A stretch of 64,000 nt of DNA from contig JAJVIF010000001.1 in NCBI GenBank assembly GCA_022072165.1, positions 461,353 to 525,352 on the forward strand, read 5' to 3'. The DNA comes from a bacterium (GTDB taxonomy: Bacteria > JAJVIF01). Every line of letters begins with the position of its first letter. The stretch's first letter is position 1. The position numbers were made by a program, and so were the translations under genes. A model generated the notes under the pieces. It was not told the origin of the DNA. It made no database searches and was given only the letters and a program-made list of their open reading frames with translations. This document shows positions 7,292-30,446 of this stretch, piece after piece.

Positions 7292-7318
7292 GCCCAGGTC
7301 CCATCGCTCTTCCTGGAA

Positions 7319-7347
7319 CCACTCCCCGGAATTCTTCCGGGGAGTGG
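7319..7347 (+). terminator. Terminator after small lipoprotein A
   Basis: A perfect 13-bp stem (CCACTCCCCGGAA and complement) has a 3-base loop, 28 bases past the stop. The T tract after it is weak. Confidence 0.7.
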
Positions 7348-7821
7348 TCGCTATTCCGGGACCAACGCACAGGCCAGAAGCACGAGCAAGGAAATTCTGG
7401 AGAAAATTTTGCCGATGATGCCAGTCGTTTTGACAGAGCTGACTTTGGAGGCCGGGGCTCCCAATCTGCGGACACGAATCCTTACTATCACGGCGACGGA
7501 TGCCGTTGTGACCATAGGCAGCAGCATAGCAGTCACCTGATTTGACATCTTTGCCCGGATTTGCGACACCGGTCAGGCGCATTCAAAGGCGATTTCAGAT
7601 GGCCAATGGATTCTGGCATCGTGAAAATTGCTAAGTATCTCCTCTGAGAGCTCGAACGCAAAAGTAGCTATAAGAATGCTGTGAAATAGGTTACCGGGGG
7701 TTCTGATGGGTCGGATTCCGATGCTGTCAAATTGAGCGCAATCACTGATGGAAAGCGTGATTCGGAGTACATCTGTCCCTGGAAAAACGTGAGAATCTTC
7801 CCCTGGCAGGTGGAGGTAGGC
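7348..7821. other. AT-richer intergenic stretch, no gene seen
   Basis: This stretch is noticeably richer in A and T than its surroundings. Open frames across it have implausible protein sequence. I see no tRNA-like or repeated element. It ends at the promoter of small lipoprotein B. Confidence 0.4.
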
Positions 7822-7850
7822 TTGACCGACTTGGATCGATAGGGTACTAT
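7822..7850 (+). promoter_or_regulatory. Sigma-70-type promoter for small lipoprotein B
   Basis: TTGACC at 7822-7827 and TACTAT at 7845-7850 are 17 bases apart. The start point would be near 7857, giving a 5' UTR of about 60 bases. Confidence 0.65.
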
Positions 7851-7918
7851 CCCTCCTGTCCGCTAACCGCGTCCGTCTGTTCAACCTTACTCGTTTCGCT
7901 GCAGTGGAGGAAAAAGTC

Positions 7919-8716: not shown

Positions 8717-8751
8717 GCTGACGGCTCCACCTACTGCGGAAAGAGGAACAG

Positions 8752-8771
8752 CCCCCCGGTTCGCCGGGGGG
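8752..8771 (+). terminator. Terminator with UUCG loop after small lipoprotein B
   Basis: An 8-bp all-GC stem (CCCCCCGG/CCGGGGGG) closes a TTCG tetraloop, followed by TCTCCTAATTCT. Confidence 0.75.
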
Positions 8772-8809
8772 TCTCCTAATTCTGGGGGGAAGGTGATCGT
8801 TCGAAGAGG

Positions 8810-9763
8810 TTAGGAGCGCGGAAGGCGAGGAGGACGCTGCAGTTCTACGCGGAGCCCATCCTTGTAGCCGCGCCATTTCGCGATCGGCGCATCCGCGTTC
8901 GGGCCGCCAGACTCCCGCCGCATTGCTACAAATATGGACAGACGCAACCAGCACCAGGTCTGGAAGCGTTGCCAGCGAGTGGCGTGCTGACGCGCACAGA
9001 CTGCCGTGCCGTAGCCCAATAGATACCGTCCCCGGGCAGAGTACCCGCCACCCGTGGCCTGACCGGCCCGGTGGTAAACCCGAGAAGCCGGCACAACAAA
9101 GGACCCGATCCCGGCTTTTTTTGCCCGGAGCGCGAAATCCACATCCTCAACGTACGCAAAGTAGGTTTCGTCGAACAGACCTATCGCCTGAAGCACAGCC
9201 ATGGGTATGAGCAGCATGCACCCGGTGCAGAAGCCAGTCGGGACCACCGAAGCCTCCATGAGTCGCGGTGGAAGCTGCGCGACTGGTTGATTAAACCGGT
9301 CCAGCTCTCCGGGGAGTGCACGCCAGGTCACCCGGCCACCACAGGCCCAGATCCGGTCGTGCGCCGGATGCTGGAGGATTAGGGGGGTCAGGAGCCGATC
9401 CGGCTGCGCCTGCTCGCAGAGTCGACGGAGGGCTTCTGGCTTCAGAAGTGTGTCGTTGTTCAGGAGCAGGACCGCTTCCGCGCCGTCCCGGGCGGCCTGA
9501 CGGATCCCCTGATTCACGCCGCGTGAAAAGCCGACGTTCTCGGCATTGGCGAGGAAGGTGACCCATGGCAGATCGTTGACATAATTCGAGAGCCAGGTGA
9601 AATCGTCCAGCTCGCTGCCATTGTCAATGACCAGCGTCGAGAAGGGACCAAAGCCAGCAGCCTCGGCATCGGCAATGGCTGGTGCAAGGGTGGTCAGACA
9701 GGCGGCGGTATCCCGACTCCCCTGATAGTTCAGGATGATGATGGTTGTCCGGCCACACGGCAT
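8810..9763 (-). CDS. Family 2 glycosyltransferase
   Basis: The product is 317 residues from ATG 9763, which overlaps the upstream stop as TGATG; an ATG two codons earlier (9769) is nearly as good. The GT-A fold is shown by the N-terminal TIIILNYQG strand, VIDNGS, NVGFSRGVNQG, the metal-binding LLLNNDT, and the late EDVDFALRAKKAG. This order matches rhamnosyltransferase-type GT2 enzymes that transfer a sugar from a nucleotide donor to a cell-envelope glycan. It is the last gene of a four-gene, translationally coupled minus-strand operon. Confidence 0.9.
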   Translation of the reverse strand: MPCGRTTIIILNYQGSRDTAACLTTLAPAIADAEAAGFGPFSTLVIDNGSELDDFTWLSNYVNDLPWVTFLANAENVGFSRGVNQGIRQAARDGAEAVLLLNNDTLLKPEALRRLCEQAQPDRLLTPLILQHPAHDRIWACGGRVTWRALPGELDRFNQPVAQLPPRLMEASVVPTGFCTGCMLLIPMAVLQAIGLFDETYFAYVEDVDFALRAKKAGIGSFVVPASRVYHRAGQATGGGYSARGRYLLGYGTAVCARQHATRWQRFQTWCWLRLSIFVAMRRESGGPNADAPIAKWRGYKDGLRVELQRPPRLPRS

Positions 9764-10563
9764 CAGCATTGTGCTCCGGGCTTTTGTAGTCGCGCGACGA
9801 GGTACTCCACACCGTGGAGGTGGTCCGGCACGAACTTGTAAGGAGTCGGCATCTGACGCAGGTCCATCGCTGGGGTCCACTCTGCAACACGCTTCTTAAC
9901 CAACGCACCGATGCCGAGCTTCCGCTTCAGGCCGATGTACCCCTTGCGGAGGGAAGTGAGCAGGCTGCTTCCTGGATGCTGCCCGACTTGCCCCGAGAGA
10001 GTCCAAGTCCACTCCGGGAGGTGGGCTGTGAGGAGCTGGCGGAACTCATCCGGGGTGTACTCATGGTGATGGAACTCATTTTCGCCAGCGATCTGGTGTG
10101 ACTCGGGATTGGGCGTCGAGATCAGCGCGATCCCCCCAGGCGCCAGTACCCGGCTAATTTCGCGCAGAAGAGGTGCCGGGTCGGTCAGATGTTCCAAGAT
10201 CTCAAACGCAACGATGCCTGACACGCTCCCATCGTTGAGTGGGAGCTGGCTGACATCCGATTCGGTATAGCTCAGTCGGAGCCCCTGTTGCCGGGCAGGA
10301 CCAAATGTCGCTTCGGCCCAGCTGATGGCTTCTTTGGAGATATCGACGCCCTGTGCGGTGAAACCAGCCTGGGCCAGCATGTGGGTCCCGTAGCCTGCTC
10401 CGCAGGCGACATCCAGCACCGACGCCGCTGGAGGGAGCACTTCGCCCAGGATCGACAGCGCCCACTGATACCGCGCGACATGCTCAGCCAGGAGCCCCTG
10501 GTCCACCTGTCCCGGAACCAACCGCTCTCCGGTAAATGCCAAGGCAGGCGTGTCGGACATCAT
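9763..10563 (-). CDS. SAM-dependent class I methyltransferase
   Basis: The product is 266 residues. SAM motif I is DVACGAGYG (about 50-58), motif II is VDIS, and the post-motif EILEHLTDP segment and GGIALISTPNP are typical of UbiE/Methyltransf_11 proteins. A HHHEYTPDEF segment is common in methyltransferases of polysaccharide clusters. The start overlaps the stop of the upstream glycosyltransferase as TGATG, so the pair is probably translationally coupled. A role in sugar or glycan methylation is inferred from the neighbours. Confidence 0.9.
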   Translation of the reverse strand: MMSDTPALAFTGERLVPGQVDQGLLAEHVARYQWALSILGEVLPPAASVLDVACGAGYGTHMLAQAGFTAQGVDISKEAISWAEATFGPARQQGLRLSYTESDVSQLPLNDGSVSGIVAFEILEHLTDPAPLLREISRVLAPGGIALISTPNPESHQIAGENEFHHHEYTPDEFRQLLTAHLPEWTWTLSGQVGQHPGSSLLTSLRKGYIGLKRKLGIGALVKKRVAEWTPAMDLRQMPTPYKFVPDHLHGVEYLVARLQKPGAQC

Positions 10564-15191: not shown

Positions 15192-16262
15192 GTGACCCGG
15201 ACTCAAGCACCTGAGCGTCTGCTGGATGCTATCGCGAGTCAGATTGCCCAGCCCGGAGACTATCTCTCCCGGCTGCGGAACTGCCTGTCACTGCTGCAGG
15301 GGCATTTTGGTGCCCAACGCGCTGCGATTCGGCTCTACAACGGCCATCAGGCTGCTGGCATCTTTACGTTGGTCCTGCCGGAGAACCGGTTTGCCCCGGA
15401 ACTGGAAGCGCTGTTTCAGACCGCCTTCATGCGGCAGATCCCCCTCGTCCATCGCCCCGACCGGCAGACCCGCTATGGCATTCTGTCGATGCCGGATTTC
15501 CCGGCGATGGCTGCGCCGGTCATGGCGCATGGGCAGCCCATTGCGGTGGTGGTCCTCGCGAAGCACCAGGGACTCAACCTCGATCTGGCAGACCTGGCGG
15601 CCCTGGATCAGGTCCTCCCCCTGCTGTCAGCGGTCATAGAAGAAGCGGTGATGCAGCGCTCCATGATTGCCGGCTACCTCAAAACCATCGAAGCGCTGGC
15701 CCTCGCCCTGGAAGCCAAGGACCCATACACCCGGGGACACAGCAACATGGTGGCGGCTTACAGCCTGGCGATCGCCGAGCGGATCGGGCTCAATGATGAA
15801 GAACAGGAAATTCTGGCCCTCGGGGCCATCATGCACGACCTCGGCAAGATCGGGATTCCTGACCATGTGCTGACCAAGCCAGGCGCGCTGACCACCGAAG
15901 AGTTTGACCTGATGAAGAAGCACCCGGAGATCGGGGAGCAGATTCTCAAGCCACTGGACCACAACTACCTGGATCGCCCCCGCCAGATCGTCCGGAGCCA
16001 CCATGAACGACTGGATGGTCGCGGCTATCCCGATGGGCTCATCGCGGCGGAGATTCCGTTGTTGGTCCGCATTGTCTCCATCGCCGATGCCTGGGACGCC
16101 ATGACCTCGGACCGGCCGTATCGGGCAGCGCTGGCCTATGAAGTCGCGGCCCGGGAGCTGCTCCGTCGTTCCGGCGACATGTGGGATCCGGACCTGGTGC
16201 GGGAGCATCTGGCAATTGTCTTCCCGGAAGCGCTGGTGAGCCTCGATCGGGCTGCTGCCTAG
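15192..16262 (+). CDS. GAF-like plus HD-GYP cyclic-di-GMP phosphodiesterase
   Basis: The product is 356 residues from GTG 15192, with AAGGAG 11 bases upstream. Residues 1-145 look like a degenerate GAF sensor. Residues about 160-345 are an HD-GYP domain: KDPYTRGHS, the catalytic HDLGKIGIP (about 215), and the intact HHERLDGRGYP (about 270) followed by IVSIADAWDAMTSDRPYR. The family hydrolyses cyclic di-GMP to pGpG or GMP with a metal centre. The last 105 bases are duplicated at 18295-18399. Confidence 0.93.
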   Translation: MTRTQAPERLLDAIASQIAQPGDYLSRLRNCLSLLQGHFGAQRAAIRLYNGHQAAGIFTLVLPENRFAPELEALFQTAFMRQIPLVHRPDRQTRYGILSMPDFPAMAAPVMAHGQPIAVVVLAKHQGLNLDLADLAALDQVLPLLSAVIEEAVMQRSMIAGYLKTIEALALALEAKDPYTRGHSNMVAAYSLAIAERIGLNDEEQEILALGAIMHDLGKIGIPDHVLTKPGALTTEEFDLMKKHPEIGEQILKPLDHNYLDRPRQIVRSHHERLDGRGYPDGLIAAEIPLLVRIVSIADAWDAMTSDRPYRAALAYEVAARELLRRSGDMWDPDLVREHLAIVFPEALVSLDRAAA

Positions 16263-16346
16263 ACAGTTCCGGCCCCTCTGAATAACTGCAAAGGGACTGT
16301 TGGCAGCGTGATGCCGTGAAGGCGTCGCAAGCCAAAATCAGGAAGC

Positions 16347-16380
16347 CCTCCGGCGGGCAACGAATGCCGGAAGCCGGAGG
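16347..16380. other. Hairpin conserved in both duplicate copies
   Basis: CCTCCGGC pairs with GCCGGAGG around an 18-base loop that holds a nested GGC/GCC pair. In the right copy (18485-18518) one arm changes to GCTGGAGG, which pairs as G-U in the plus-strand RNA. It lies between convergent stops without a T tract, so it may be a structural or Rho-type end. Confidence 0.45.
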
Positions 16381-16430
16381 ACCGAAGTGTGTCGCACTAC
16401 GAGCCATGCCAGTGCTTGAGAAACTGGGGG

Positions 16431-17447
16431 CTAGTTGACCTGGGAGACCAGGAAGAGTTGATAGCCCTCGGTCGACAGGCGCGGGTCGCCTGGCTTCAAT
16501 ATCTCACCCTTGCTGCGCAGCGATCCGACCGCTGGGTCAAAAGTGATGGTGAAGAGGCGCTCCGGGCTCCAGCCAGACTGATCCCGCTCGCTGACCCGGA
16601 TGAGATTGTGCTCGGTGTTGATCCAGACTTCGATGCCGAACTGCGACGAAGCGAGCAGGTCTGGCTGTGGCTGCATCCGATGGGGCCGTAAGTGCAGCGC
16701 TTGCAGCATCTCTGCATGGCTCTCCGGCAGCCGGCCATACCTCCGTCCGAAATCCTTGATGCGCTCAACGATCGCGAACGTAGCCAGCTCTGTCTGCATT
16801 GAGGGAACGCCCGAGAAGATGTTGTTGATGTTCTTCCTAAAGGACTTTGAGACCGTACCCGGTTCTCCGACAGTGAACTGGATATGCAGGGTTTCATGAT
16901 CCAGTAGCAAAGCATAGGCACCAGCCGGGATGGTCCCTCCCGTAGCGCGATCAATGATCGGCCAGTCACTCTGATCTTGTCTGACAGGGTGATAGAACAG
17001 CGGCAAAGCGTCAAACAGCTCGGTCAGACTCGAGGGACGATGACCGTGTTCCGCTGTAAACGTTTCGATGCTATCCATCATTTCCATCCAGATCCCGTTG
17101 AACCGGAGTGACTGCTCGGAAGCGACATCACCATTCACAGCCCTCGCCATCTTGGGCAACTCTGGCACCCACGAGTCAGGCTTCGCGGCAGCTTCGACTG
17201 ACGTTGCTGCCTCTACTCCAGCCACAGGAGCCGGATGAGAGTTGTTGACGGGTGAGTCTGTGACATCCAGAGCGGGTGATTCCTGTGCTCCGACATTCGG
17301 AACCGAAGATGATGTGTTTGCCAGATCTGAAGTGGCAACAGGAATGGAACTGGCTGTACTGGCGTATTGCCTGCCTTCCTTCTCCAGACACCCACAAAAG
17401 AGTGCCATTCCGATGATCGTGCAGAGAAGCAGTTTGATGCTGTTCAT
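16431..17447 (-). CDS. Lipoprotein (left duplicate copy)
   Basis: The product is 338 residues from ATG 17447, with AAGGAG eight bases upstream. The signal peptide ends at Cys20 in an atypical lipobox (LFCGC). A Ser/Ala/Val-rich linker occupies about 21-110. The body (about 115-338) has two helix-plus-loop modules of pseudopilin type: DSIETFTAEHGHRPSSLTEL and VERIKDFGRRYGRLPESHAE. The last 110 residues are nearly identical to the chimeric protein at 18569. It begins 30 bases after the Cys-rich gene, so the two form an operon. The function is unknown. Confidence 0.85.
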   Translation of the reverse strand: MNSIKLLLCTIIGMALFCGCLEKEGRQYASTASSIPVATSDLANTSSSVPNVGAQESPALDVTDSPVNNSHPAPVAGVEAATSVEAAAKPDSWVPELPKMARAVNGDVASEQSLRFNGIWMEMMDSIETFTAEHGHRPSSLTELFDALPLFYHPVRQDQSDWPIIDRATGGTIPAGAYALLLDHETLHIQFTVGEPGTVSKSFRKNINNIFSGVPSMQTELATFAIVERIKDFGRRYGRLPESHAEMLQALHLRPHRMQPQPDLLASSQFGIEVWINTEHNLIRVSERDQSGWSPERLFTITFDPAVGSLRSKGEILKPGDPRLSTEGYQLFLVSQVN

Positions 17448-17476
17448 GCTTTCGCTCCTTGTCTTGAGATAACAGT

Positions 17477-17950
17477 CTACGGGCAAGTCGGGCAAATTGA
17501 GGTGTTGCAGTAAACGACAGTCGGAACAGTGCCTTCTGTGCAAGGTGTGCCGAGGCAGTCTGGCCCATCCGGGTCAAAGCAGAGATGGATTTGATTTTCA
17601 AAGTCCTCTCCACATTCCTCTGGCTCCGGAGGATCTTCGATGCACCGAACGGGCAGGTAGGAAATGAAGCCACCGCACTGTGTGCCTGGGCTTCCATTTG
17701 GACACGTTTGGGCAACGAGCTCACAACTCGAGAAGAGCGTAAACTGTCGCGTGGTGGTGGTGATGCTGTATTGGCAGTCTGGATAGCCCTCCTGAGGGCA
17801 TTCGTAGATGCACGTTTCGCTGGCGACATCTTGCTTCAAAAGCTTCCAACAGCAGAAGGGAGGACTGGCCTCTGCCGACGAGATCGGACCAGGAATGCCG
17901 CTAAAGATGCTCAGCATCAGCACACTGAGCAGCAACCAGAGTCTGGACAT
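17477..17950 (-). CDS. Secreted cysteine-rich protein
   Basis: The product is 157 residues. ATG 17950 has GGAGG seven bases upstream. A signal peptide (hydrophobic residues 4-20) cleaves near SSAEA, with no lipobox. The mature protein has about 16 cysteines in 130 residues, in spacings such as PFCCW, ETCIYECP, DCLGTPC and SICPTCP, which suggests many disulfides. I recognise no family. Its first 57 codons, including the signal peptide, are duplicated as the N-terminus of the gene at 18569. It is the first gene of a two-gene operon. Confidence 0.8.
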   Translation of the reverse strand: MSRLWLLLSVLMLSIFSGIPGPISSAEASPPFCCWKLLKQDVASETCIYECPQEGYPDCQYSITTTTRQFTLFSSCELVAQTCPNGSPGTQCGGFISYLPVRCIEDPPEPEECGEDFENQIHLCFDPDGPDCLGTPCTEGTVPTVVYCNTSICPTCP

Positions 17951-17992
17951 GAATCGTCCTCCAACTGGGACATGCTCCGCAACTCAACGAAC

Positions 17993-18037
17993 TACGCGAA
18001 GTACGCGAGGTACGCGAGGTACGCGAGGTACGCACGA
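17993..18037. repeat. 9-bp tandem repeat upstream of the Cys-rich gene
   Basis: Four units of TACGCGA(A/G)G at 17993-18028 are followed by a degenerate TACGCACGA. The array lies 43-87 bases upstream of the minus-strand start at 17950, in the promoter or 5' UTR. The matching array before the right copy has only two full units. Confidence 0.85.
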
Positions 18038-18091
18038 GACAATATCACAGCATTGGGCTGCGGTGCAAATGCATCCCTTAGTCCTCAAAAA

Positions 18092-18286
18092 TTAGCTGAC
18101 TGGACTCCCCGCCGGGGCATCCTGCTCCGGGGTCAGCACTATTACACGCCCATCTGCAGTCGTAGTAGCGAGCAGCATCCCCTGCGATTCCACGCCCCGC
18201 AGTTTCTGCGGTGCCAGATTCGTCAGCACCACAATCTTGCGCCCGACCATCGACTCCGGCGTGTAATGCTCTGCGATGCCAGAGAT
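18092..18286 (-). pseudogene. Remnant of the metG 3' end
   Basis: These 195 bases match the last 65 codons of metG (19616-19810), including the TAA stop, with scattered substitutions. Homology ends abruptly near 18286. There is no start or upstream coding sequence, so it is a dead fragment left by the tandem duplication. Confidence 0.85.
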
Positions 18287-18294
18287 GCTAGTTC

Positions 18295-18399
18295 ACTCTG
18301 TTGTTCTCAGCTGTTGTACGGCATCCAGAACTGGTGCGGGAGCATCTGGCTATTGTCTACTTGGAAGCGCTCGTGAGCCTCGACCGGGCCGCCGCCTAG
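18295..18399 (+). pseudogene. Remnant of the HD-GYP gene 3' end
   Basis: These bases match the last 35 codons of the HD-GYP gene (16158-16262), including the TAG stop; identity is clear from about 18323 on. It abuts the metG remnant, marking the junction between the two duplicate copies. Confidence 0.8.
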
Positions 18400-18568
18400 C
18401 TAGTTCCGGTCTCTCCGAATAACTGGCAATGAGACTGTTGGCAACGTGATGCCGTGAAGGCGTCGCAAGCCAAAATCAGGAAGCCCTCCGGCGGGCAATG
18501 AATGCCGGAAGCTGGAGGGCAGAAGTGTGTAGCACTGCGAGTCAGGCCAGTGCTGAAGAAACTGGAGG

Positions 18569-19492
18569 CTAGTTGACCTGGGAGACCAGAAAGAGTTGAT
18601 AGCCCTCGGTCGACAGGCGCGGGTCGCCTGGCTTCAATATCTCGCCCGTGCTGCGCAGAGATCCGACCGCTGGGTCAAAGGTGATGGTGAAGAGGCGCTC
18701 TGGGCTCCAGCCGGACTGATCACGCTCGCTGACCCGGATGAGATTGTGCTCAGTGTTGATCCAGACTTCGATCCCGAACTGCGATGGGGCGAGCAGGCCC
18801 GGTTGCGGCTGCATTCGATTCGCGCGGAGGTGCAACTGTTGCAGCAGCTCTGCGTGGCTCTCGGGTAGTCGGCCCATCAACTGTCCGAAATCCTTGATTC
18901 GTTGCACGACGGCAAAAGTGGCCATCTCAGTGCTCAGCGACGGCACTCCCGTGAGTTGCTTCTCAAGCTTCTGTCTGTATGACTTCGAGACCGTTCCCGG
19001 TTCACCCACCGTGAACTGAATCCCTAATGCTTCCTGATCCAGAACCAGGATGAAAGAGCCGGGAGGAGCGGACTCTCCAGTGGCCCCGTCGATGATCGGC
19101 CAGTCGGTCTGATCGCTCCGTATGGGATGATAAAACAGTGGGTAGGAATCGAACAGCACAGTCAAACTTCGGGGGCGATGTCCACGATCCGCCGTGAATG
19201 TGTCGATGCTGTCCAGTATCTCGTGGAAAAAAATCCCGTCGAAGAGGATTTGCTGTCGGCTAGGGATGTCGCCGTTGACAGCTCGAGCCATCAGCTTGAT
19301 TTCGGGAATCCAGAGATTTTCTGGATAGCCCTCTTGAGGGCAATCATAGATGCAGAGTTGGCTGGCAACATCCTCTTTCAGAAGCTTCCAGCAGCAGAAG
19401 GGGGGACTGGCCTCCGCCGACGAGATCGGACCAGGAATGCCGCTAAAGATGCTCAACATCAGCACACTGAGCAGCAACCAGAGTTTGGACAC
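18569..19492 (-). CDS. Chimeric exported protein (Cys-rich signal peptide fused to lipoprotein body)
   Basis: The product is 307 residues from GTG 19492, with GGAGG seven bases upstream; the left copy uses ATG at the same place. Residues 1-57 match the N-terminus of the Cys-rich protein at 17477, with an SPI-type signal peptide. From about residue 61 (WIPEIKLMARAVNGD) it matches the body of the lipoprotein at 16431, so the lipobox and linker are lost and the mature protein should be soluble. The junction falls near 19310-19322. The frame is open throughout and the pseudopilin-like modules are intact, which suggests it is expressed and maintained. Confidence 0.87.
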   Translation of the reverse strand: MSKLWLLLSVLMLSIFSGIPGPISSAEASPPFCCWKLLKEDVASQLCIYDCPQEGYPENLWIPEIKLMARAVNGDIPSRQQILFDGIFFHEILDSIDTFTADRGHRPRSLTVLFDSYPLFYHPIRSDQTDWPIIDGATGESAPPGSFILVLDQEALGIQFTVGEPGTVSKSYRQKLEKQLTGVPSLSTEMATFAVVQRIKDFGQLMGRLPESHAELLQQLHLRANRMQPQPGLLAPSQFGIEVWINTEHNLIRVSERDQSGWSPERLFTITFDPAVGSLRSTGEILKPGDPRLSTEGYQLFLVSQVN

Positions 19493-19534
19493 GAATCGAC
19501 CTCCAACTGGGACATGCTCCGCAACTCAACGAAC

Positions 19535-19561
19535 TACGCGAAGTACGCGAAGTACGCACGA
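19535..19561. repeat. 9-bp tandem repeat upstream of the chimeric gene
   Basis: Two full TACGCGAAG units (19535-19552) and a degenerate TACGCACGA unit correspond to the longer array at 17993-18037. Confidence 0.8.
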
Positions 19562-19615
19562 GACAATATCACAGCATTGGACTGCGGTGCAAATGCATCC
19601 CTTGATCCGCAAAAA

Positions 19616-21589
19616 TTAGCTGACTGGACTCCCCGCTGCGGCATCCTGCTCCGGGCTCAGGACAATGACGCGCCCGTCTGCCGTCGTGGCAGCGAGCAGC
19701 ATCCCCTGCGATTCCACGCCCCGCAGTTTCCGCGGTGCCAGATTCACCAGCACCACAATCTTGCGCCCAACCATCGACTCCGGCGTGTAATGCTCTGCGA
19801 TGCCCGACACAATGGTCCGCTCTTCGGTTCCCAGCGAAACGGTCAGTTTCAGGAGCTTGTCCGCACCTTCCACCCGTTCTGCCGCCGTCACTTCCGCGAC
19901 CCGCAGGTCGAGCTTTCCAAAATCGTCGTACTGAATCTCGCCCTTGTCGCCACCCTTTTTCTTGACCGGCGGCGCGGGAGTCGCGATGGCGTTCGCCGGT
20001 GGCGCTGCCGGGGCGCTCCCGGCAGCAAGCCGCTCGAAGTAGGCCGCTTCATCGATGCGCGGCACGATCGGCTCTCCCAGGCGGGTAAGAGTCCCGGCTG
20101 GCAACAGGCCCAGCGTATGCGCCGCCTGTCGCGGCTGTTCTGCCGCCAGTCCATCAAGGCCCAGCTGGCTCCAGATGGCCTGTGCCAGATTGGGGATGTA
20201 GGGGCTCAGGGCGATGGCGATCAGTCGCAGGGCATCGAGCATGTCATAGAGCGTTTGGTCAAGGGCAGCATCATTCCCCTGCTTCGACAGCGCCCAGGGG
20301 GCCCGGGAGTCGATGAATTTGTTGATGCCCCGTACAACTTCCCAGACCTGCTCCAGCGCCGACTGCAGGCGAAACTCCTCCAGCTCGGCATCAGACGACG
20401 GCAGGACCCGGGCGATGAGCTCCTGCAGGTCGCTATAGGCCGGGTCCGGCGGAGTCTCTGGACGTGCTGGGACAGTTCCCTGTCGGTAGCGTCCGAGCAT
20501 GGAGAGTGAGCGATGGAGCGCATTCCCCAGATCATTGGCGAGGTCGCTGTTCACCCGGTGGATGAACGCTTCGTCGCTGAAGGTGCCATCGCTGCCGAGG
20601 GACGCCTCCCGTAGCAGGTAATAGCGGAAGGGGTCGGGCCCGAACTCTTCGATGAACGGCTCAGGCTGGATGAGATTTCCTCGGGACTTGGAGATTTTCT
20701 GGTCGTCTTTGACCCAGAAACCGTGTGCCACGACTCCCCGGGTCAGGGGCAACTCCGCGGCGAGTAACACGGCGGGCATGATCACCGTGTGGAACCAGAG
20801 AATGTCTTTCCCGATCAGATGCACGATGTTGGGCCACAGATGTCCGAAGCGGGCCGGATCGACCCGATAGCTGCTGGCGGTGGCATAGCCCAGCAGCGCA
20901 TCGACCCAGACATAGCAGACATGTCCTGGAGCCAGGGAGTCGAGGGGCACGCCCCACTCGATGCTGGTTCGAGTGATCGAGAGGTCCTTGAGTTCCTCGC
21001 CCTGGAGTCGCGAGAGAATCTCGTTCCGCCGACTCTCGGGGCGAATCCGCTCGGGCTCCTTCGCATACAGGTCCAGGAGCGCCTGCCGGTAGGCTGACAT
21101 CCGGAAGTAAAAGGTCTCTTCACTGGTCCAGACCAGGTCAGCGGTGCCGTTATCTGCCTCGACCTGCTCCTTTTCGCTTTCGGGAACAAAGCGCTCTTCT
21201 GAGACGCTGTACCAGCCCTCGTAGGAACCCGAATAAATCGCTCCTCGCTCCTGGAGGCGATCCACCACTTCCTGCACGTCCAGATAATGCGCTGGCTCTG
21301 TGGTCCGGACATAGCGGTCGTAGCTCATCCCGAATATGTCCCAGAGCTCTTTGGTGTAGGTGACGATGTCGTCGCACCAGGCCTGGGGAGTCTTGTCGTG
21401 TTTCTTCGCCGTGTTCGCGATTTTCTGACCGTGCTCATCCGCCCCGGTGATAAACCAGACTTCCGATCCGCACTGACGGTAATACCTCGCCAGGGTGTCG
21501 GCGATGCAGGTGGAATAGGTATGGCCGATGTGCGGGCGACCATTGGTGTAGTACAGGGGGGTAGTGATGCCGAAGACCGGAGGGGTCAT
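19616..21589 (-). CDS. metG: Methionine--tRNA ligase
   Basis: The product is 657 residues and charges initiator and elongator tRNA(Met). The class I HIGH motif is PHIGH (19-23). The KMSKS loop is KISKSRGN (about 300). The connective peptide has GWYSVSEERF and lacks the Cys knuckles of the E. coli type. The anticodon-binding domain follows. A Pro/Ala-rich linker joins a C-terminal Trbp111-like tRNA-binding domain (about 550-657; [27 protein letters not shown]). The last 65 codons are duplicated as a remnant at 18092. Confidence 0.97.
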   Translation of the reverse strand: MTPPVFGITTPLYYTNGRPHIGHTYSTCIADTLARYYRQCGSEVWFITGADEHGQKIANTAKKHDKTPQAWCDDIVTYTKELWDIFGMSYDRYVRTTEPAHYLDVQEVVDRLQERGAIYSGSYEGWYSVSEERFVPESEKEQVEADNGTADLVWTSEETFYFRMSAYRQALLDLYAKEPERIRPESRRNEILSRLQGEELKDLSITRTSIEWGVPLDSLAPGHVCYVWVDALLGYATASSYRVDPARFGHLWPNIVHLIGKDILWFHTVIMPAVLLAAELPLTRGVVAHGFWVKDDQKISKSRGNLIQPEPFIEEFGPDPFRYYLLREASLGSDGTFSDEAFIHRVNSDLANDLGNALHRSLSMLGRYRQGTVPARPETPPDPAYSDLQELIARVLPSSDAELEEFRLQSALEQVWEVVRGINKFIDSRAPWALSKQGNDAALDQTLYDMLDALRLIAIALSPYIPNLAQAIWSQLGLDGLAAEQPRQAAHTLGLLPAGTLTRLGEPIVPRIDEAAYFERLAAGSAPAAPPANAIATPAPPVKKKGGDKGEIQYDDFGKLDLRVAEVTAAERVEGADKLLKLTVSLGTEERTIVSGIAEHYTPESMVGRKIVVLVNLAPRKLRGVESQGMLLAATTADGRVIVLSPEQDAAAGSPVS

Positions 21590-21968: not shown

Positions 21969-24575
21969 CTACGGCGGGGTGACAGCGTAGGTCTGGTAGC
22001 GCGCCCGGCCGGTCGCGATGGCGGTGGAGTTGAGTCCGGCCACGATGACCCGGTTGCCGGCATTGGAGTACCCCACACGTCCCTGTGTGTGGGTTTCTCC
22101 GGCGATGGAGGGGATGATGGCGAAGTCTTCGACCAGTTTGAACTGTCCGCTGGGTGTAAGGAGCGCTCCCCAGATTTCCTGTCGACCGTTCACCATGCGG
22201 TCATCATCCCAGACCGCATGAATGCGATTGCTGGTATCGATGGCGAGCTGTGTCCTGGCCGGGTTGTTCGTGCCCGGAGCAGCCCCGCTGGTGTTGCTGA
22301 TGCGGATTGGGAGACTCCAGCCATCACCAGTCGTGAACTTTGTCAGGAAAACGGCGGTTTGGGTCGCGCTGCCGTTCATGTCATCAATCCAGGCCACGAC
22401 CGGCTCGTTGTTGCTGTTGATCGAGATCGCGACTTCTGTGAGTCCGCCATCAGCATACGGTGCACCGGTGAGCAGGACCGGAGCACCGTCCCAGCTTCCC
22501 GGAGTCCCATGAAGCCACTTGCGGTAGTAGATCTCATCGACCGATGCGGCACCCTGGATTTCCCAGACGATGTGGAGGTTGTTGGCTCCATCGATAGCGG
22601 CCGCGACATTTGCAGACGGAAGCGCAGTGATTCCGGTGTCGACCGGCCCCGGCAGCTGGGTGAAGACAGCAGGATGGATGAAGGCGTTTGTGGTCTGGTA
22701 CAGCGTCAGACGCGAGGGGTTGTGTCCCAGGGTCGTGGAGGTATTCCGGACCAGGACATACGCCGTGTTGGCGATGGTGCGGCTGGGAAGCACGATCGGC
22801 TGGCGATAGGTGCCGGCGGTTTCGATTTCGACGCCGTTACTCACAGCGCCATAGTTCACAAGTCCGCCACTCTCACTCTGGCAGGCGAGGTAGGTCAGAT
22901 CGTTGCCCGTATCTATCGCCGCAAGGGAGGGGAGCCCATTGGCCATCACGCCGATGCTGAAGCCATTCGCGCTTGGAGCGGCAGCTCCACCGGCGTAGCT
23001 GGTGAGGGTCGCAGCCGGATTCAGCCAGGTGCGGCCATCGTCCGTGCTCCGGTAGATGCGGATGGTGTTCGGTGAAGCCGAGTGGACGCCGCAATAGACA
23101 TCACCATTGCCCTGCACGGCAATCACCCGGGTTTGCGCTGGACTGCCAATGTTGATGGCAGTACTGCCCATGTCCGCGTTGATGCCCACGCCCGGGACCG
23201 GATCCGGGGTGATATTCCCCAACACGGCCGTGGGGACTACCGGAATGCGGACCACCTGATAGCGGGTCGAAGAAAGCCGGGTCACAGGCTGGAGGGACTC
23301 GTTCAGGACGATCGGCAGAGTGGTGTCCGTGGCATCGTCCTGATCCTGGGTGTCCTGCACCCGCAGGAGCCCCAGGACATCGACCGTGGTGGTCGGATTG
23401 AAGAGGTCTTCGTTGTTCAGCGAGACACTACTCGTAATCAGCGGGGCAGTCCCCAGGGGAGCGGTGCCGGGGAATGGGGCAATGGTGGCCAGCTGAGGAG
23501 CGGAGAGCGAGACATTTAGCACGTTTGAATTCTCGGAGATCAGCGACGGATTGGACGGATCCGGAAAAGCGGGTGCGACCGAAGCTCCATGATCCCAGTC
23601 GAGCACCGTCAGATCGATCAGCACGATGTCGCTGCTGATGCCGGACCGGAGGAAGCCTGAGACTGTCGCGTTGATATGCTGGACATCACCCGCGGCCTCT
23701 GGCAGCAGATAGCGCAGACTGGCAGGATTCCCAGGCTCGGGGAGCCGCTTCGCCTTGGGGTTCGGGGTTGCCCGGGGGTCCATGTACTTGGCGACCGGCA
23801 CGAGCACAAAGTCGATGGCACCGCTGGTGGCATCCAGATCAAAGGTTACATCGACCGAACTCCCCTGTGGAAACACGTCGAATCCTGTCGGACTCAGCAG
23901 CGCACTGCCGGTCCAGCCATGCGCGCCCGGCTGGTAGTTCCCCAGGGGATTCAGCGGGTCGATTCCCTTGGCCACGAGGCGGTATGGGAAGAGATTGGTG
24001 CTCGCTGCACCCAGAGTACTGCGGTTAAAAGTCGACCCGGGATCGCGATAGCCATCGGCGTTTCGGAGCAGACTCCCATTGGTTGCCAGTGGGCCTTCGC
24101 CGAAGTTAAACGTATCAGTTCCAGGTGTCACGACGAGGGCCGTGACATCGAACAGATGCAGGTCGATGCGCTTGGTCGACGAAGCCGGTGGCACCAGGTC
24201 GGCGGGCGCAGCAAACGGATGGGAGAAGCGAACAGTCACCATGACTCGCCCGGCTTCAGGGCCTGGTCCGATCTGCACCAGCTGCACATCACGGGGACCG
24301 AAGAACGGGCGCGGCGACAGCAAGTAGAGGTCGCCCTGCCTTGCGGCAGATCGCAGGGGAGTCACCGATCCGGTCAGCGACTCCAGGTCTGCGCTAACCG
24401 CATACGCGCCCATCGCCGCCTCCGCCATTCCACCAGGAGCAGCATAGACCTGACTGGCAGTCAGTGGGTCAGGTGTCGACTCCAGACCAGCAACCGAAGG
24501 TGCTTCGCTGGAAGCGGAGCAGGCAGCGAGCAGCAGGCTGAGCAGCGAGAGCTGAGGGAACAGGGGATGGCGCAT
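21969..24575 (-). CDS. Giant lipoprotein 2 with Asp-box beta-propeller
   Basis: The product is 868 residues from ATG 24575, with GGAGG six bases upstream. Lipobox LLAAC gives Cys19. Residues about 75-480 are the shared family domain: GDLYLLSPRPFF, FSHPFAAP.DLVPP, KRIDLHLFDVTALVV, NADGYRDPG, FPYRLVAKGIDPLNPLGNY, LAPTGFDVFPQG-like, KYMDPRATPNPKAKRLP, LRYLLPEAAGDVQ and LDWDHGASVA, then LNESLQPVTRLSSTRYQVVR. Residues about 490-868 carry Asp-box STDDGRTW (about 510) and repeated IHAVWDDDR-type strands, as in BNR/sialidase-fold propellers. The sialidase catalytic Arg triad is not evident, so binding is more likely than hydrolysis. Confidence 0.87.
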   Translation of the reverse strand: MRHPLFPQLSLLSLLLAACSASSEAPSVAGLESTPDPLTASQVYAAPGGMAEAAMGAYAVSADLESLTGSVTPLRSAARQGDLYLLSPRPFFGPRDVQLVQIGPGPEAGRVMVTVRFSHPFAAPADLVPPASSTKRIDLHLFDVTALVVTPGTDTFNFGEGPLATNGSLLRNADGYRDPGSTFNRSTLGAASTNLFPYRLVAKGIDPLNPLGNYQPGAHGWTGSALLSPTGFDVFPQGSSVDVTFDLDATSGAIDFVLVPVAKYMDPRATPNPKAKRLPEPGNPASLRYLLPEAAGDVQHINATVSGFLRSGISSDIVLIDLTVLDWDHGASVAPAFPDPSNPSLISENSNVLNVSLSAPQLATIAPFPGTAPLGTAPLITSSVSLNNEDLFNPTTTVDVLGLLRVQDTQDQDDATDTTLPIVLNESLQPVTRLSSTRYQVVRIPVVPTAVLGNITPDPVPGVGINADMGSTAINIGSPAQTRVIAVQGNGDVYCGVHSASPNTIRIYRSTDDGRTWLNPAATLTSYAGGAAAPSANGFSIGVMANGLPSLAAIDTGNDLTYLACQSESGGLVNYGAVSNGVEIETAGTYRQPIVLPSRTIANTAYVLVRNTSTTLGHNPSRLTLYQTTNAFIHPAVFTQLPGPVDTGITALPSANVAAAIDGANNLHIVWEIQGAASVDEIYYRKWLHGTPGSWDGAPVLLTGAPYADGGLTEVAISINSNNEPVVAWIDDMNGSATQTAVFLTKFTTGDGWSLPIRISNTSGAAPGTNNPARTQLAIDTSNRIHAVWDDDRMVNGRQEIWGALLTPSGQFKLVEDFAIIPSIAGETHTQGRVGYSNAGNRVIVAGLNSTAIATGRARYQTYAVTPP

Positions 24576-24775: not shown

Positions 24776-27400
24776 TCAGGGCGCGACAGTGTACTGCCGA
24801 TACCGCACCCGTCCGGTAGCGTTAGCCGTGCTGATCCGCCCAATGACCGTCATGCGCTGTGATACCGGGTCCCATTCGATGGCTGGAATGGTCGTGATGA
24901 ACTCATAGGTGCCATCCACCCCCGGGATGATCTCGAAGTCACCGGGAGTGAGTTTCTGCTGGCCATCACTGCTCAGTACTGCGCCCCAAAGTTCATACAC
25001 AGGAGTCGAGGTGTTTTCCCTGGAGTCACGCCAGACCAGGTGAATCCGGCCAGCGCTGTCGAGGGCCATGTCGGGAAAGAGGATGATGTTGGCGGCAAGT
25101 GCGCCATTTGGGGGGTCATTCACCGTGAGAAGGGGCGACCAGCCCGTGCCACTACTGAAGCGCGTAAGCCTGACACTATTGTCGTTCGGAAAGGTGGGAT
25201 CCGGATCACTGTCTTTCATCGCCACGATCGGCTCGTTCGCGCTGGTCACCAGAATGCTGGGATCGCTCAGACTGGTCCCTGTACCGATCACGACTTCCGT
25301 CGCTGCCCAGGAGCCGCCGCTCGGAGTGCCATCATCGTCGAATCGCCGATAAAAGAGCTGATGGTTGCCGGAGATGCGGTTTATCCAGACCAGGTGGAAG
25401 CGTGCCTGAGCATCCATGACGCCGCGCAGCGCTTCATCCCGCTGTACTCCGGTGTCGAGGGAATCCGCTGTGCCGGGTAGAAGCGTAAACGTGGGATTCG
25501 CGCTGGCGGCATTCTGGGAGAAGAAGACACTGATTCCCCGGTAATTCGGGCCCGCTGGCGTGCCGCTGATGAAGTAGTTCTCTGCGACAACATAGACGCG
25601 GTTCGGATTGGTCGGATGGGGCAGCACTACCGGATCCTTCCAGGACCCGTCGCCATCAATTTCGACGCCACTGGTTAGTGGATTGAGCGTCACCGTGCCC
25701 CCAGACTCCGACTGCGCTGCGATGTACCCCAGGTCATACCCCGTGTCGATAACCGCCAGGGCGGGGAGTCCATTCGCCAGAAGCCCCAAGCCAAGCCCGT
25801 TGCGTACAGCCGTGAGTGCGGTAGGAGTTCCGAATGTCGCAAACTCGTTGCGATTGCCCCAGGTGGCTCCACCATCGGTGGATCGGTAGAGTACCCAGGC
25901 GATGGGCGCTTCATCACGGAGGAAGAACGTGTACAAATCGCCGTTCCCCTCGCTGACAAGCCCCCTGGTGACGTAGTCACTTAGGAAGGCGTAGCTCACG
26001 GCTTCCCCCCCCATGTCGGCATTCAGGCCAACAGCTGGTTCCGGTAGCAACGTAATGGTGACCGGCCCTGAAACCACGCCGGGCGTCACGGGGATCCGCA
26101 CGACCTGATAGCGCGTGCTGCTCAGGGAAGAGACCGGCTGGAGACCCTCGTTGAGCCCCAGCGGGGCGGGGGAGTGGGCATCCTGCTGGTCCGTCACCCG
26201 GACCAATCCCAGTGCCTGTGTAGTGGTGGGGGGATCTAACAGGTCCGTGTTCGACACACTCGCCGTGGTACTGAGGAGTGGTGCAGCACCGGTGACTGCG
26301 GAGACCGGGAAGGGGCCCGCTGCCTGCAATAGCGGGACACTGATGTCAATGGTTCCCACCTGCGATGGCCGGGCGACTTGCGAGAGATCTGCGTTATTGG
26401 GGAACGGCGCAGCGACACTCGCATCGTGATCCCAGTCGAGCACCTCCAGGTCAATGGTCACCTGCTCAGCAGATGAATTACCAGCGAGCGAGCCGTTGAC
26501 GCTTGCCTGGATGCGCTGCACATCACCGGCGGCTTCAGGTAAAAAGTACCGCAGACTGGTGGGGTCCCCCGGCAGCGGCAGACGCTTTGTTTTTGGGTCG
26601 GGCGTGGCGCGGGGATCCATGTACTTCGCCAGTGTGACCAGTGGCAGACTGACAGATGTCTGACCTGTCAGTTCCAGATCAAATGTCACTTCTGCGCTGC
26701 CGCCCTGAGGGAACACATCGAATCCCGTCGGGACCAGGAGCGACAAATCGGTCCAGCCGTTGTTGAACGGGGAGTAGTTCCCCAGGGGATTTAGGGGATT
26801 GATGTCCTGTGCCACAAGTCGGTACGGAAAGATGTTGGCACCGGCGATACCGAGGGTTGTCCGGTCGAAAGTTTGCCCCGGATCCCGATAGCCATCAGCA
26901 TTGCGCAGCAGCGCGGCATTGGTCGTGATCGTTCCGCTGAAAAACGTATCGGTCCCTTCAACCGCGAGGAGGGCCGTGACATCAAAGATGTGCAGATCAA
27001 TCCGTTTCGATGCTGTCGCCGGAGGGTTCAGATCATCTGGTGCAGCGAACGGATGGTAAAAGGCGACCGTGACCCGGAGCGTCTGCCCGGCACCAGACCG
27101 CTCGACTTTCCGGACACGGATATCCTTTGGTTTGAAGAAGGGACGAACGCTCAGTTCATACACATCGCCCTGCGTTGAAAGAGCCCGCGTGGGGAGGACT
27201 TCAGCACTCATCGCCAGGCTGTCGACATGCAGCTCGACAGCTCCAATGACGCCAGTCACGAGGCCTGGGGAGGTCGCGACTGGCGGCTGCAAAAAGGCAT
27301 TAAACGCGGAGGTGGAAGTGTCAGTACCGCTCGTCGGTCGAGCGGCGCAACTGAGCAGCAGGATCGAGGCTGGAATCAGGCAGAGAGGTGAAGGGCGCAC
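24776..27400 (-). CDS. Giant lipoprotein 3 with Asp-box beta-propeller
   Basis: The product is 874 residues. I chose GTG 27400 because GGAGG lies eight bases upstream and a short signal peptide with lipobox LLSC (Cys18) begins there; the frame runs further upstream through an AT-rich promoter region. The shared domain is complete: FYHPFAAPDDLNPP, KRIDLHIFDVTALLA, NADGYRDPG, NPLGNY, PTGFDVFPQG, KYMDPRATPDPKTKRLP, FLPEAAGDVQ, LDWDHDASVA. An Asp-box STDGGATW lies near residue 507 and IHLVWRDSR near the end. It is the closest relative of giant lipoprotein 2. Confidence 0.85.
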   Translation of the reverse strand: MRPSPLCLIPASILLLSCAARPTSGTDTSTSAFNAFLQPPVATSPGLVTGVIGAVELHVDSLAMSAEVLPTRALSTQGDVYELSVRPFFKPKDIRVRKVERSGAGQTLRVTVAFYHPFAAPDDLNPPATASKRIDLHIFDVTALLAVEGTDTFFSGTITTNAALLRNADGYRDPGQTFDRTTLGIAGANIFPYRLVAQDINPLNPLGNYSPFNNGWTDLSLLVPTGFDVFPQGGSAEVTFDLELTGQTSVSLPLVTLAKYMDPRATPDPKTKRLPLPGDPTSLRYFLPEAAGDVQRIQASVNGSLAGNSSAEQVTIDLEVLDWDHDASVAAPFPNNADLSQVARPSQVGTIDISVPLLQAAGPFPVSAVTGAAPLLSTTASVSNTDLLDPPTTTQALGLVRVTDQQDAHSPAPLGLNEGLQPVSSLSSTRYQVVRIPVTPGVVSGPVTITLLPEPAVGLNADMGGEAVSYAFLSDYVTRGLVSEGNGDLYTFFLRDEAPIAWVLYRSTDGGATWGNRNEFATFGTPTALTAVRNGLGLGLLANGLPALAVIDTGYDLGYIAAQSESGGTVTLNPLTSGVEIDGDGSWKDPVVLPHPTNPNRVYVVAENYFISGTPAGPNYRGISVFFSQNAASANPTFTLLPGTADSLDTGVQRDEALRGVMDAQARFHLVWINRISGNHQLFYRRFDDDGTPSGGSWAATEVVIGTGTSLSDPSILVTSANEPIVAMKDSDPDPTFPNDNSVRLTRFSSGTGWSPLLTVNDPPNGALAANIILFPDMALDSAGRIHLVWRDSRENTSTPVYELWGAVLSSDGQQKLTPGDFEIIPGVDGTYEFITTIPAIEWDPVSQRMTVIGRISTANATGRVRYRQYTVAP

Positions 27401-27536: not shown

Positions 27537-30446
27537 CTAGAAGCTGTACCGTCGGTAGCGCACCTTGCCGTCAGTGACGGTGCCGTTGGCATAGGCGGTC
27601 ACCAGCATCTTGTTCACGCCCGGCAGATACTGAATGCGGGAGTTGGTGAAGTCATCGGTGATGGTGGTGGCCGTAAAGACGTTGGTATCAGGTGTCAGCT
27701 TCCGACGTCCATCGGCGCTAAAGATAGTGATGGGTGTGTCATCCCACGCGTCCGTGGTCCCATCCTCGCGCCAGACGATGTGGATGCGGTTGTTGGAGTC
27801 GATGGCGACGCCGCAGTACTTCCGGAGGCTGTTGAGGTTCGGGTAATTCGTGTTGTTCACGGTCCGGGGTTTCGTCCAGCCAGAGCCCGTGTTGAATTTG
27901 GTGACGACCAGGTTCCCCCGGAGGGCTGTCTCATAATTGAGGAATGCCACCACCGGTTCGTTGGCGAAGTTCACTGCGATGTTGGTGTCATCTGCACCCG
28001 TCACATCAACCCCGACCTGTCCGATGACGACTTCCGGGCCATCCCACGCCTGCGCCGTGTCATTCCACTTGCGGTACTTGGCGCTGCCGGTGTTGCTCTG
28101 TGAGCACCAGGCGACATGGATGTTGCCGACAGAATCGATCGTGGCGATCGGGTCGAACTCGTTGGTCGTCGATCCATCGACATCCATGATGCCCGCCTGG
28201 ACGAACGTCGGATTCGGTGAGGTCGCGTCATTGGTGATCCAGAGGGTGCTGCTCCACGGATTGACGCCCAGCGTGGAACTGTTGTTTTTCGCCAGAATGT
28301 AAAGGCGATTGAGATCGATGGGATGCGGCATCACCGAGGGTGTGTACCAGTCCGACGCAATCTCGATCTCCGAGCCCTCCGATGTCGGACCCCAGTTGAT
28401 GGATGTACCAGTTTCAGAAGCCGAGCGCTTGAAGAGGAGGTCAAAGCCGGAGTCCATGCCAGCAAAACAGGGCCGGCCGTCATTCATGATGCCGAGAGAG
28501 ATACCGCGCACAGCCGAGTTCTGGGCATTAACAGGGCTCGGGAACGGAGTCGTGATAGTGTTCGGCGCACCCCAGGTCGTCGCACTGTCAGTGCTCTTGT
28601 ATACGACCCAGTCAAGAGGCGTGGACCCACGTCGCAGGAGGAAATAGACCTCTCCAGAAGGCTTGGCGACCAGGATATCCGGGTTATCGGTCACCGTGGT
28701 TGTCGCAGACTGATTGACCATGTCCGCATTGATGCCACCCGGAACGGGGAGCGGATCGAGCGTGACGCTGAGTGGCGCAGAAATGTTGACCGTGAGAGTG
28801 CACTCTGTCGAGAAGGGAGTCACGTTGCCATCAGTGATGCGGAGTTTGATCGTCTGCGTGCCAGGGACTGGGTAGGTGAAGGACCCTGGAAAATCCGGGA
28901 GATCCGACCCATTCGTTGCTGTCACCGTGCTGTCATAAGTACCATCGTTGTCGTAGTCGATCTCGTACAGGATGATGCCATCGACATCACTGGCGGGTGT
29001 GGAGGCCGCATCCAGATCGAGGTTGTATGGGATGCCAGCGACCGCTTCCAGCGCCCAGGAACCACCGGAGTAAACCGGGCAGGAAGGACCGGCATTGGAG
29101 GCGAGCACCTCAAAGCGGACCACCTGGTACCGGGTACTGCTCAGGGTCGTCACCGGAGCCAGCGACTCGTTCAGGGCGATCGGCTTGGTGGAGTCGGTGG
29201 TGTCATCGTCATCCTGCGAGTCCGCTACTTTTACCATCGCCAGCACCTGAGTAGGGGTGGGGGATGAGAAGAGGTCCTGATTGTTCACCGGTACCGAAAC
29301 AGTCCAGAGGGGGCCGGAACCGCTGACCGCGCCACCGGCGAACACCCCTCCGGCGTAGAGCTGCGGTGCACTCAGTTCGACACCGGTGATCGTGGAAGCC
29401 TCTGAGATCTCGTTGAGGTTACTGTTGTTGGGGAAAGTCCCCGCGACCGCAGCATCGTGATCCCAGTCCAGAATCGTGAGATTCAACGTGGCGATCTCGC
29501 TGCTGCTGCCGGAGTTGAGGGTCCCGACAACTGCCCCTTCGAGGCGCTGCACATCCCCAGCAGCCTCCGGCAGGATGTACTGGAGGGCGGTCGGATCCCC
29601 CGCCACTGGGAGGCGCTTGCTCTTGGGATTGGGGGTGGAACGCGGGTCCATGTACTTGGCCAGCGTCACCAGATTGAGACTGATGGGATTCGTGGCATCC
29701 AGGCGGAACGTGACCGTGGAGGTCCCCCCCTGCGGAAAGACGTCGTATCCCGTCGGGGCGATCAGCGATGCCCCGGTCCACCCGTTGGCGGTCGGGTTGT
29801 AGTTGCCCGCCGGATTGCCGGTGTCGATGTTGCCGACCAGCTTGTAAGGAAAGACGTTGGCGTTGGTCACGCCGAGAGATGACAGGTTGACAGTCTCTCC
29901 CGGCTTCCGGTAGCCATCAGCGTTGACCAGCAAATTGGCATTGGTGGTAACAGCGTCTGGTCCGCTGAAAAAGGTGTGGCTCCCCTCTGCGACCACCATG
30001 GCGGTGACATCGAAGATGTGCAGGTCGATGCGCTTGGTGGCAGATGCCGGCGGATTCAGATCAGACGGTGCGGCGAAGGGATGGCTAAAGGTGATGTCGA
30101 CATCGATGGTGCTCCCCGGTCCGCGGGTGACACCAGCCACCTTGACGTTGCCAGAGCGCAGGAACGGGCGGATGGACAGGTGATACAGATCGCCCTGAGT
30201 TTGGGCCAGATGTGGAGTGGTGACTTCGGCATGGAGCGTTTCTGGATTGATGTCGAGCTGGGAGAGCCCCAGCATCCCGGCCACCATTCCCGGTGACACA
30301 TCTGCCAGCGGACCTGCGACCTCGCTGGTCAGCTGGACCGGCTCGGAACCAGGGGAATCTGACGTGGTGTTCGTTGGGGCTGAACTATTGCAGCCCACCG
30401 CGAGAGCGGCACCCAGAAGTGGGAGCCAGAGAGAGCAGTGTCGCAT
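27537..30446 (-). CDS. Giant lipoprotein 4 with PKD-like insert and Asp-box propeller
   Basis: The product is 969 residues from ATG 30446, with GAGG seven bases upstream. Lipobox LAVGC gives Cys19. The shared domain (about 70-450) has GDLYHLSIRPFLRSG, FSHPFAAPSDLNPP, KRIDLHIFDVTAMVV, NADGYRKPG, PTGYDVFPQG, KYMDPRSTPNPKSKRLP, LPEAAGDVQ and LDWDHDAAVA. A PKD-like domain of about 100 residues (452-562; IDYDNDGTYDS, FTYPVPGTQTIKLRI) is inserted before the propeller and explains its greater length. The Asp-box is STDSATTW (about 619), with IHIVWRED near the end. Confidence 0.87.
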   Translation of the reverse strand: MRHCSLWLPLLGAALAVGCNSSAPTNTTSDSPGSEPVQLTSEVAGPLADVSPGMVAGMLGLSQLDINPETLHAEVTTPHLAQTQGDLYHLSIRPFLRSGNVKVAGVTRGPGSTIDVDITFSHPFAAPSDLNPPASATKRIDLHIFDVTAMVVAEGSHTFFSGPDAVTTNANLLVNADGYRKPGETVNLSSLGVTNANVFPYKLVGNIDTGNPAGNYNPTANGWTGASLIAPTGYDVFPQGGTSTVTFRLDATNPISLNLVTLAKYMDPRSTPNPKSKRLPVAGDPTALQYILPEAAGDVQRLEGAVVGTLNSGSSSEIATLNLTILDWDHDAAVAGTFPNNSNLNEISEASTITGVELSAPQLYAGGVFAGGAVSGSGPLWTVSVPVNNQDLFSSPTPTQVLAMVKVADSQDDDDTTDSTKPIALNESLAPVTTLSSTRYQVVRFEVLASNAGPSCPVYSGGSWALEAVAGIPYNLDLDAASTPASDVDGIILYEIDYDNDGTYDSTVTATNGSDLPDFPGSFTYPVPGTQTIKLRITDGNVTPFSTECTLTVNISAPLSVTLDPLPVPGGINADMVNQSATTTVTDNPDILVAKPSGEVYFLLRRGSTPLDWVVYKSTDSATTWGAPNTITTPFPSPVNAQNSAVRGISLGIMNDGRPCFAGMDSGFDLLFKRSASETGTSINWGPTSEGSEIEIASDWYTPSVMPHPIDLNRLYILAKNNSSTLGVNPWSSTLWITNDATSPNPTFVQAGIMDVDGSTTNEFDPIATIDSVGNIHVAWCSQSNTGSAKYRKWNDTAQAWDGPEVVIGQVGVDVTGADDTNIAVNFANEPVVAFLNYETALRGNLVVTKFNTGSGWTKPRTVNNTNYPNLNSLRKYCGVAIDSNNRIHIVWREDGTTDAWDDTPITIFSADGRRKLTPDTNVFTATTITDDFTNSRIQYLPGVNKMLVTAYANGTVTDGKVRYRRYSF

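Follow-up and report, generated by a model that had tools for sequence, protein, structure and literature searches.

Tandem duplication and gene fusion in a bacterial operon family of exported proteins with simple sequence repeats in its promoters

Phase variation through simple sequence repeats in promoters is known mainly from pathogens with small genomes, in which one or a few loci use each type of repeat. A change in repeat length is known to alter promoter output at hmw1A (PMC8262952), hifA/B (PMC2651432), nadA (PMC11475388) and vlhA (PMC6258824). The repeats are heptamers after the P2 -10 box in hmw1A (PMC8262952), a (TA)n spacer in hifA/B (PMC2651432) and GAA tracts in vlhA (PMC6258824). 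We analysed a 64,000-nucleotide stretch of bacterial DNA, called the window below, which contains a tandem duplication of a block of genes. In one copy, the gene for a small Cys-rich exported protein, designated X, is followed by that for a lipoprotein, designated Y; the other copy encodes a single fused protein, F. The block is probably one member of a repertoire of lineage-specific exported proteins encoded at multiple contingency (phase-variation) loci, whose expression would switch through repeats in the promoters.

The hmw1A and hmw2A loci of Haemophilus influenzae (PMC8262952) resemble the present ones in that a repeat, a heptanucleotide in hmw, runs from the -10 box of the active promoter into the 5' leader of a surface-protein gene, and in that paralogous loci have different unit numbers. 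They differ in being two loci with one shared unit, whereas about ten leaders with longer units occur here and mostly have different units; no protein relationship to hmw was found. The hifA/hifB promoters of H. influenzae (PMC2651432) likewise hold a dinucleotide repeat proposed to fix the -35/-10 spacing, but hif (TA)n lies between divergent pilin genes, while (AG/CT)n here occupies six dispersed loci with Cys-rich/lipoprotein pairs. The vlhA genes of Mycoplasma gallisepticum (PMC6258824) also form a large lipoprotein family with a variable repeat at each promoter; their GAA trinucleotide, however, lies about 40 nt upstream of the start site, is one unit throughout, and serves single genes. 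Comparison of Y members with the VlhA haemagglutinins gave no vlhA-type Pfam or NCBIfam match, with one chance-level hit overall. The present loci match the hmw and hif designs in repeat position; they would work like the hmwA, hifA/B and vlhA promoters but are unrelated to them in sequence.

All results on the family come from one genome, 3.26 Mb in 4 contigs and 99.1% complete. A blastn comparison of the window with itself aligned 16183-17151 with 18320-19292 (79% identity, E=0) and 17778-18311 with 19320-19835 (87%, E=0), confirming the duplication: 16183-18286 recurs at 18320-19810. A preliminary description of this locus had placed the start of the block at 16158/18295; the repeat is real, but homology begins at about 16183/18320. 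Its account of the gene content holds, with a full HD-GYP gene and only a tail of metG in the left copy and the reverse in the right (HD-GYP tail 86% identical, metG tail 91%), as does its explanation by a tandem duplication with breakpoints inside both convergent neighbours, the truncated tails of which sit between the copies. Read on the minus strand, the left copy runs from the metG tail through X and Y to the convergent HD-GYP gene, and the right copy from the full metG through F to the dead HD-GYP tail (Table 1). Offsets between the aligned copies are 2137, 2138, 1542 and 1524 along the block. The net change from 2137 to 1524 stands, but the 613-base loss previously read from it is not one event: it comprises a 599-base deletion at the fusion junction, a separate 18-base loss in the leader, and two small insertions (2137+1+3-599-18=1524). 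The leader loss equals two units of a 9-bp tandem repeat exactly. This repeat had gone without mention, and the promoter-repeat family had been overlooked. Further tandem paralogues occur in the same window at 6656-7293 / 8090-8718 and at 23575-24228 / 26427-27066 / 29443-30094, with 66-73% identity.

Table 1. The duplicated block and its flanking genes, in window positions.
Feature	Position	Strand	Evidence
HD-GYP gene, intact, left neighbour	15192..16262	+	Pfam HD_5 E=2e-33
Y: lipoprotein, 338 aa, lipobox-like LFCGC	16431..17447	-	ORF; genome family of at least 12
X: Cys-rich exported protein, 157 aa, 16 Cys, ordinary signal peptide, without lipobox	17477..17950	-	ORF; in 13-sequence family with six invariant Cys
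Left-copy leader tandem repeat, 9-bp unit x5.1	17988..18033	-	Tandem Repeats Finder scores 64 and 75
Left-copy promoter-like site TTTGCA-17-GATATT, directly before repeat	18041..18069	-	Consensus match; weak -35
metG dead tail from duplication	18091..18286	-	91% identical to 19616-19810
HD-GYP dead tail from duplication	18320..18399	+	86% identical to 16183-16262
F: X residues 1-58 + Y body, 307 aa, GTG start	18569..19492	-	blastp 88% to X, 75% to Y
F fusion junction, residues 58-60	19313..19321	-	Sequence: X TATCCAGAC / Y AAGCCTGAC / F TATCCAGAAAATCTCTGG
Right-copy leader tandem repeat, 9-bp unit of left copy x3.1	19530..19557	-	Tandem Repeats Finder score 49
Right-copy promoter-like site TTTGCA-17-GATATT	19565..19593	-	Consensus match
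metG, intact, right neighbour	19616..21589	-	Pfam tRNA-synt_1g E=1e-96

By blastp, F matches X over residues 1-58 and Y from its residue 93 onward, which bears out the earlier proposal that a deletion fused X to Y and exchanged a lipoprotein signal for an ordinary one. F retains the first four invariant Cys residues of X. The joined points have a short match in common (X ...TATCCAGACTGC, Y ...AAGCCTGACTCG; where X and Y join, CCAGACTG / CCTGACTC). A match of this kind would fit a microhomology-type deletion of the 599 bases. A fusion that came first is ruled out by the separate X-Y pairs at many other loci of the genome, and because these pairs recur, the two-gene form is, on this comparison, the ancestral one.

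The two copies are mosaic. Identity is 85-98% at their ends and 52-78% in the middle; for the dead gene tails and the spacers it is 86-95%. Of the third codon positions, 90 of 160 differ in the first part of the Y/F overlap versus 18 of 86 in the last part (p=1e-7). Synonymous divergence is about 0.36-0.37 both in those last 86 codons and in the X part; in the first 160 codons synonymous sites are saturated, which rules out positive selection as the source of the divergent middle. Because the copies are mosaic, a single duplication followed by even divergence, as first supposed, is too simple, and the contrast in codon positions contradicts it. The ends may have been homogenised by gene conversion, or else the middle may derive from an older copy. 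NG86 estimates between the copies are dN 0.174 and dS 1.03, and 0.056 and 0.37 for the X part; the chance of zero stops after 93 random substitutions is 0.03. The F frame had been thought to be maintained by selection. Purifying selection on the duplicated coding sequence is plausible from these values, but a comparison of two sequences does not single out F as the constrained member.

Genome-wide profile searches recovered at least 12 genes for Y and 13 full-length ones for X. The X proteins (13 sequences) have six invariant Cys residues in common, two of which form a CC pair close to the start of the mature protein. X directly precedes Y in the window and at loci L024, L025, L026, L050, L053 and L057, and does so in two modules each at L051, L073 and L097; Y occurs without X at L054, L056 and L058, and the X gene of L052 is frameshifted. 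The broken X and Y frames at L052 (3517-4065) and L054 (2679-3498) have the appearance of genes in decay, suggesting members being lost from the repertoire. Two further loci, L095 and L096, carry a second family, in which a small Cys-rich protein is paired with a lipoprotein of about 420-450 aa behind an (AG)n spacer promoter; the two lipoproteins are 34% identical (E=6e-80). Locus L024 (C1:643000-658000) has a tandem pair, at 7269-8303 and 8579-10304, with the dead tail of a convergent tldD-like gene between the copies, which are mosaic like the window block, with near-identical 3' ends and divergent bodies. Its single-gene copy is a Y gene without a lipobox, behind a leader related to that of the neighbouring X (Smith-Waterman score 29 vs a shuffle maximum of 19.5), and may represent a second X-to-Y fusion.

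The signal peptides of X and the lipoboxes of Y, recognised by inspection, mark the products as exported; from these signals we infer a surface location for both and anchoring for Y. Exported-type Cys-rich ORFs are scarce, 5 of 725 by a crude filter that several known X genes escaped. Pfam and NCBIfam gave no match above chance level for either X or Y. The X profile found no relative in 384 other genomes, including three class relatives, at the sensitivity of the search, and the F query none in 39 other genomes; the Y profile found nothing in the class relatives beyond one match at E=0.03. Queries of the genome contigs with Y and metG (metG by pattern scan) returned no relative. AlphaFold models were poor (pLDDT 49 for Y, 41 for X), and Foldseek found nothing below E=0.5. 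Judged by these searches, the X-Y proteins appear to be specific to their lineage, which belongs to a poorly sampled bacterial class.

An array was scored where Tandem Repeats Finder gave a value of 40 or more no farther than 100 bp from the start codon. With F included, arrays are present at 10 of the 13 leading X promoters, and a repeat was found inside the promoter or leader in 17 leaders at 15 loci. Two designs occur: the array lies directly after the -10 box, with units of 8-12 bp, or (AG/CT)n makes up the whole -35/-10 spacer. In the longer-unit class the array starts close behind a sigma-70-like -10 box, as in the promoters of L026, TTGACA-17-TAGGTT-(ACCCGCTGTT)4, and L050, TTGACA-17-TATTTT-(CTCCCTAT)5. 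The unit is 9 bp in the window (both copies), 17 bp in L025, 10 bp in L026 and L057, and 8 bp in L050, and is AG/CT in L051b, L053, L073 and L097; over all loci the lengths are 2, 8, 9, 10, 12 and 17 bp, and unit sequences are mostly locus-specific. Among the (AG/CT)n promoters, L053 reads TTGACT-(CT)n-TATAAT, with a perfect TATAAT and a predicted spacer of 17; predicted spacers elsewhere are 16 (L095), 17 (L096, with a weak -10), 19 (L097), about 19-21 (L051b) and 21 (L073). Matches to the -10 box are poor in part of this class (L096, L097, L051b). No array above threshold was found at L051a, L052, L024X or the internal modules L073b and L097b. A possible spacer at L052 contains A8, and 1.7 units are present at L024X.

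The change in repeat number is the only sizeable indel in a window leader that is otherwise 95% identical between the copies. Unit numbers differ within tandem pairs, 5.1/3.1 in the window and 6.1/2.1 at L066. With the same unit in different counts, these tandem copies demonstrate changes of unit number within the lineage. Arrays are short, with 8-11.5 units in the dinucleotide class and between 2.6 and about 6 in the class of longer units, and slippage may be slow because of this shortness.

Some leaders have further peculiarities. At L025 (6373-6442) the 17-bp unit holds a ribosome-binding site and an ATG, and translation could thus start in a different frame at each unit. The decamer ACCCGCTGTT is found in the leaders of both L026 (8356-8393) and L152 (19461-19509), which are diverged operons on different contigs. 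L059 (4218-4364) and L073 (9816 onward) have in common an intergenic element with a C run, GCTTGCGGGGGTGGTCGC and CAGCGACCGGG; in L059 this element has a 20-bp unit repeated 5.9 times.

Repeats were sampled in 800 kb of stretches and the window, 864 kb in all or about a quarter of the genome, and any total for the operons is therefore an estimate. The background, at the same threshold, is 12 arrays in 400 kb of dispersed stretches (0.03 per kb). Among leading X promoters found by homology alone, 8 of 11 have an array, versus 2 of 154 ordinary control leaders (p=1e-10). The two control positives are F itself, without which the count is 1/154, and L066. The latter was rejected as a control and reassigned to the family by its downstream genes, a CC-type Cys-rich exported protein and then a lipoprotein, as at X-Y loci; none of the control leaders outside the family (154 leaders) has an array. 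Over the full 3.26 Mb there are six (CT)8+ runs, and every one forms the spacer of a TTGAC-(AG/CT)n promoter in front of a Cys-rich/lipoprotein operon; four of these operons, including L095 and L096, were discovered from the repeat first. CT runs are absent in the three class-relative genomes. The sole dinucleotide run of at least 6 units in the first 464 kb sampled is such a promoter. A new 400 kb sample, looked at after the prediction, contained three non-coding arrays: the strong ones, at L139 and L152, each precede a Cys-rich exported gene and a lipoprotein, and the third is weak (2.0 copies) with no gene behind it. Throughout the 864 kb, all strong non-coding leader arrays precede Cys-rich/lipoprotein operons, a near-exclusive association.

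The explanation we favor is that of dispersed two-gene operons, each encoding a small Cys-rich exported X and a lipoprotein Y, most of which would be transcribed from a promoter containing a simple sequence repeat, in the spacer or in the leader after the -10 box. Slipped-strand mispairing in living cells would add or remove units and so change the length of spacer or leader, and each operon could be turned up, down or off independently of the others; we infer that unit number changes often enough to switch expression within a population. In the window, one member was duplicated in tandem, and one copy then lost two repeat units and 599 bases. The larger loss joined the signal of X, along with its first four Cys residues, to the Y body, and the copies have probably exchanged sequence afterwards.

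The repeats might instead be fixed regulatory elements (operator arrays, or elements for RNA stability or ribosome standby) that hold expression at a constant level without switching. Their one set position relative to the promoter is in keeping with this, as is the decamer used by both L026 and L152, but units that mostly differ among loci are unlike the target of one regulator, the repeat replaces the promoter spacer at six loci, and tandem copies differ in unit number; we consider such elements rather unlikely. It is quite improbable that the window records nothing more than a tandem duplication and a deletion of the ordinary kind, outside any wider system, with F neofunctionalised or decaying and the leader repeats neutral noise. 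That reading accounts for the clear duplication footprints and the other tandem paralogues in the window, yet arrays are rare in the background and concentrated in family leaders far above chance, and they predict new family members. As tandem repeats are prone to misassembly, the second copy could even be an artefact, a suggestion that can be practically dismissed for copies that differ at hundreds of sites, in a genome assembled to the completeness given above, with similar tandem pairs of different content at L024 and L066.

Another possibility concerns the role of the proteins and is compatible with a switchable repertoire: X and Y could be pairs of secreted toxin and membrane immunity protein or receptor, used in competition and diversified by duplication and recombination, to which promoter repeats add variable expression. 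A small Cys-rich exported protein adjoining a lipoprotein would suit such pairs, as would the strong divergence of the members, and sub-threshold Pfam matches named immunity protein were obtained for one X member (E=0.079) and one Y member (E=0.025). These matches are single and at chance level, however, no toxin domain was found, and F would join both partners; on balance, this role is unlikely.

F illustrates how fused genes emerge from tandem copies. Returning to the contingency repertoire, promoter-repeat logic apparently arose no fewer than 15 times within a single genome, in two designs with mostly different units, for one kind of lineage-specific gene pair. We tentatively propose, as a serious possibility, combinatorial surface variation: at least 20 two-gene operons would switch independently through locus-specific promoter repeats, each with its own origin and turnover. 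Every cell would then differ in which of the Cys-rich proteins and lipoproteins it displays, perhaps as a defence against phages, predators or competing strains and not against the immune system of an animal. The repertoire predicts which genes should vary between sister cells.
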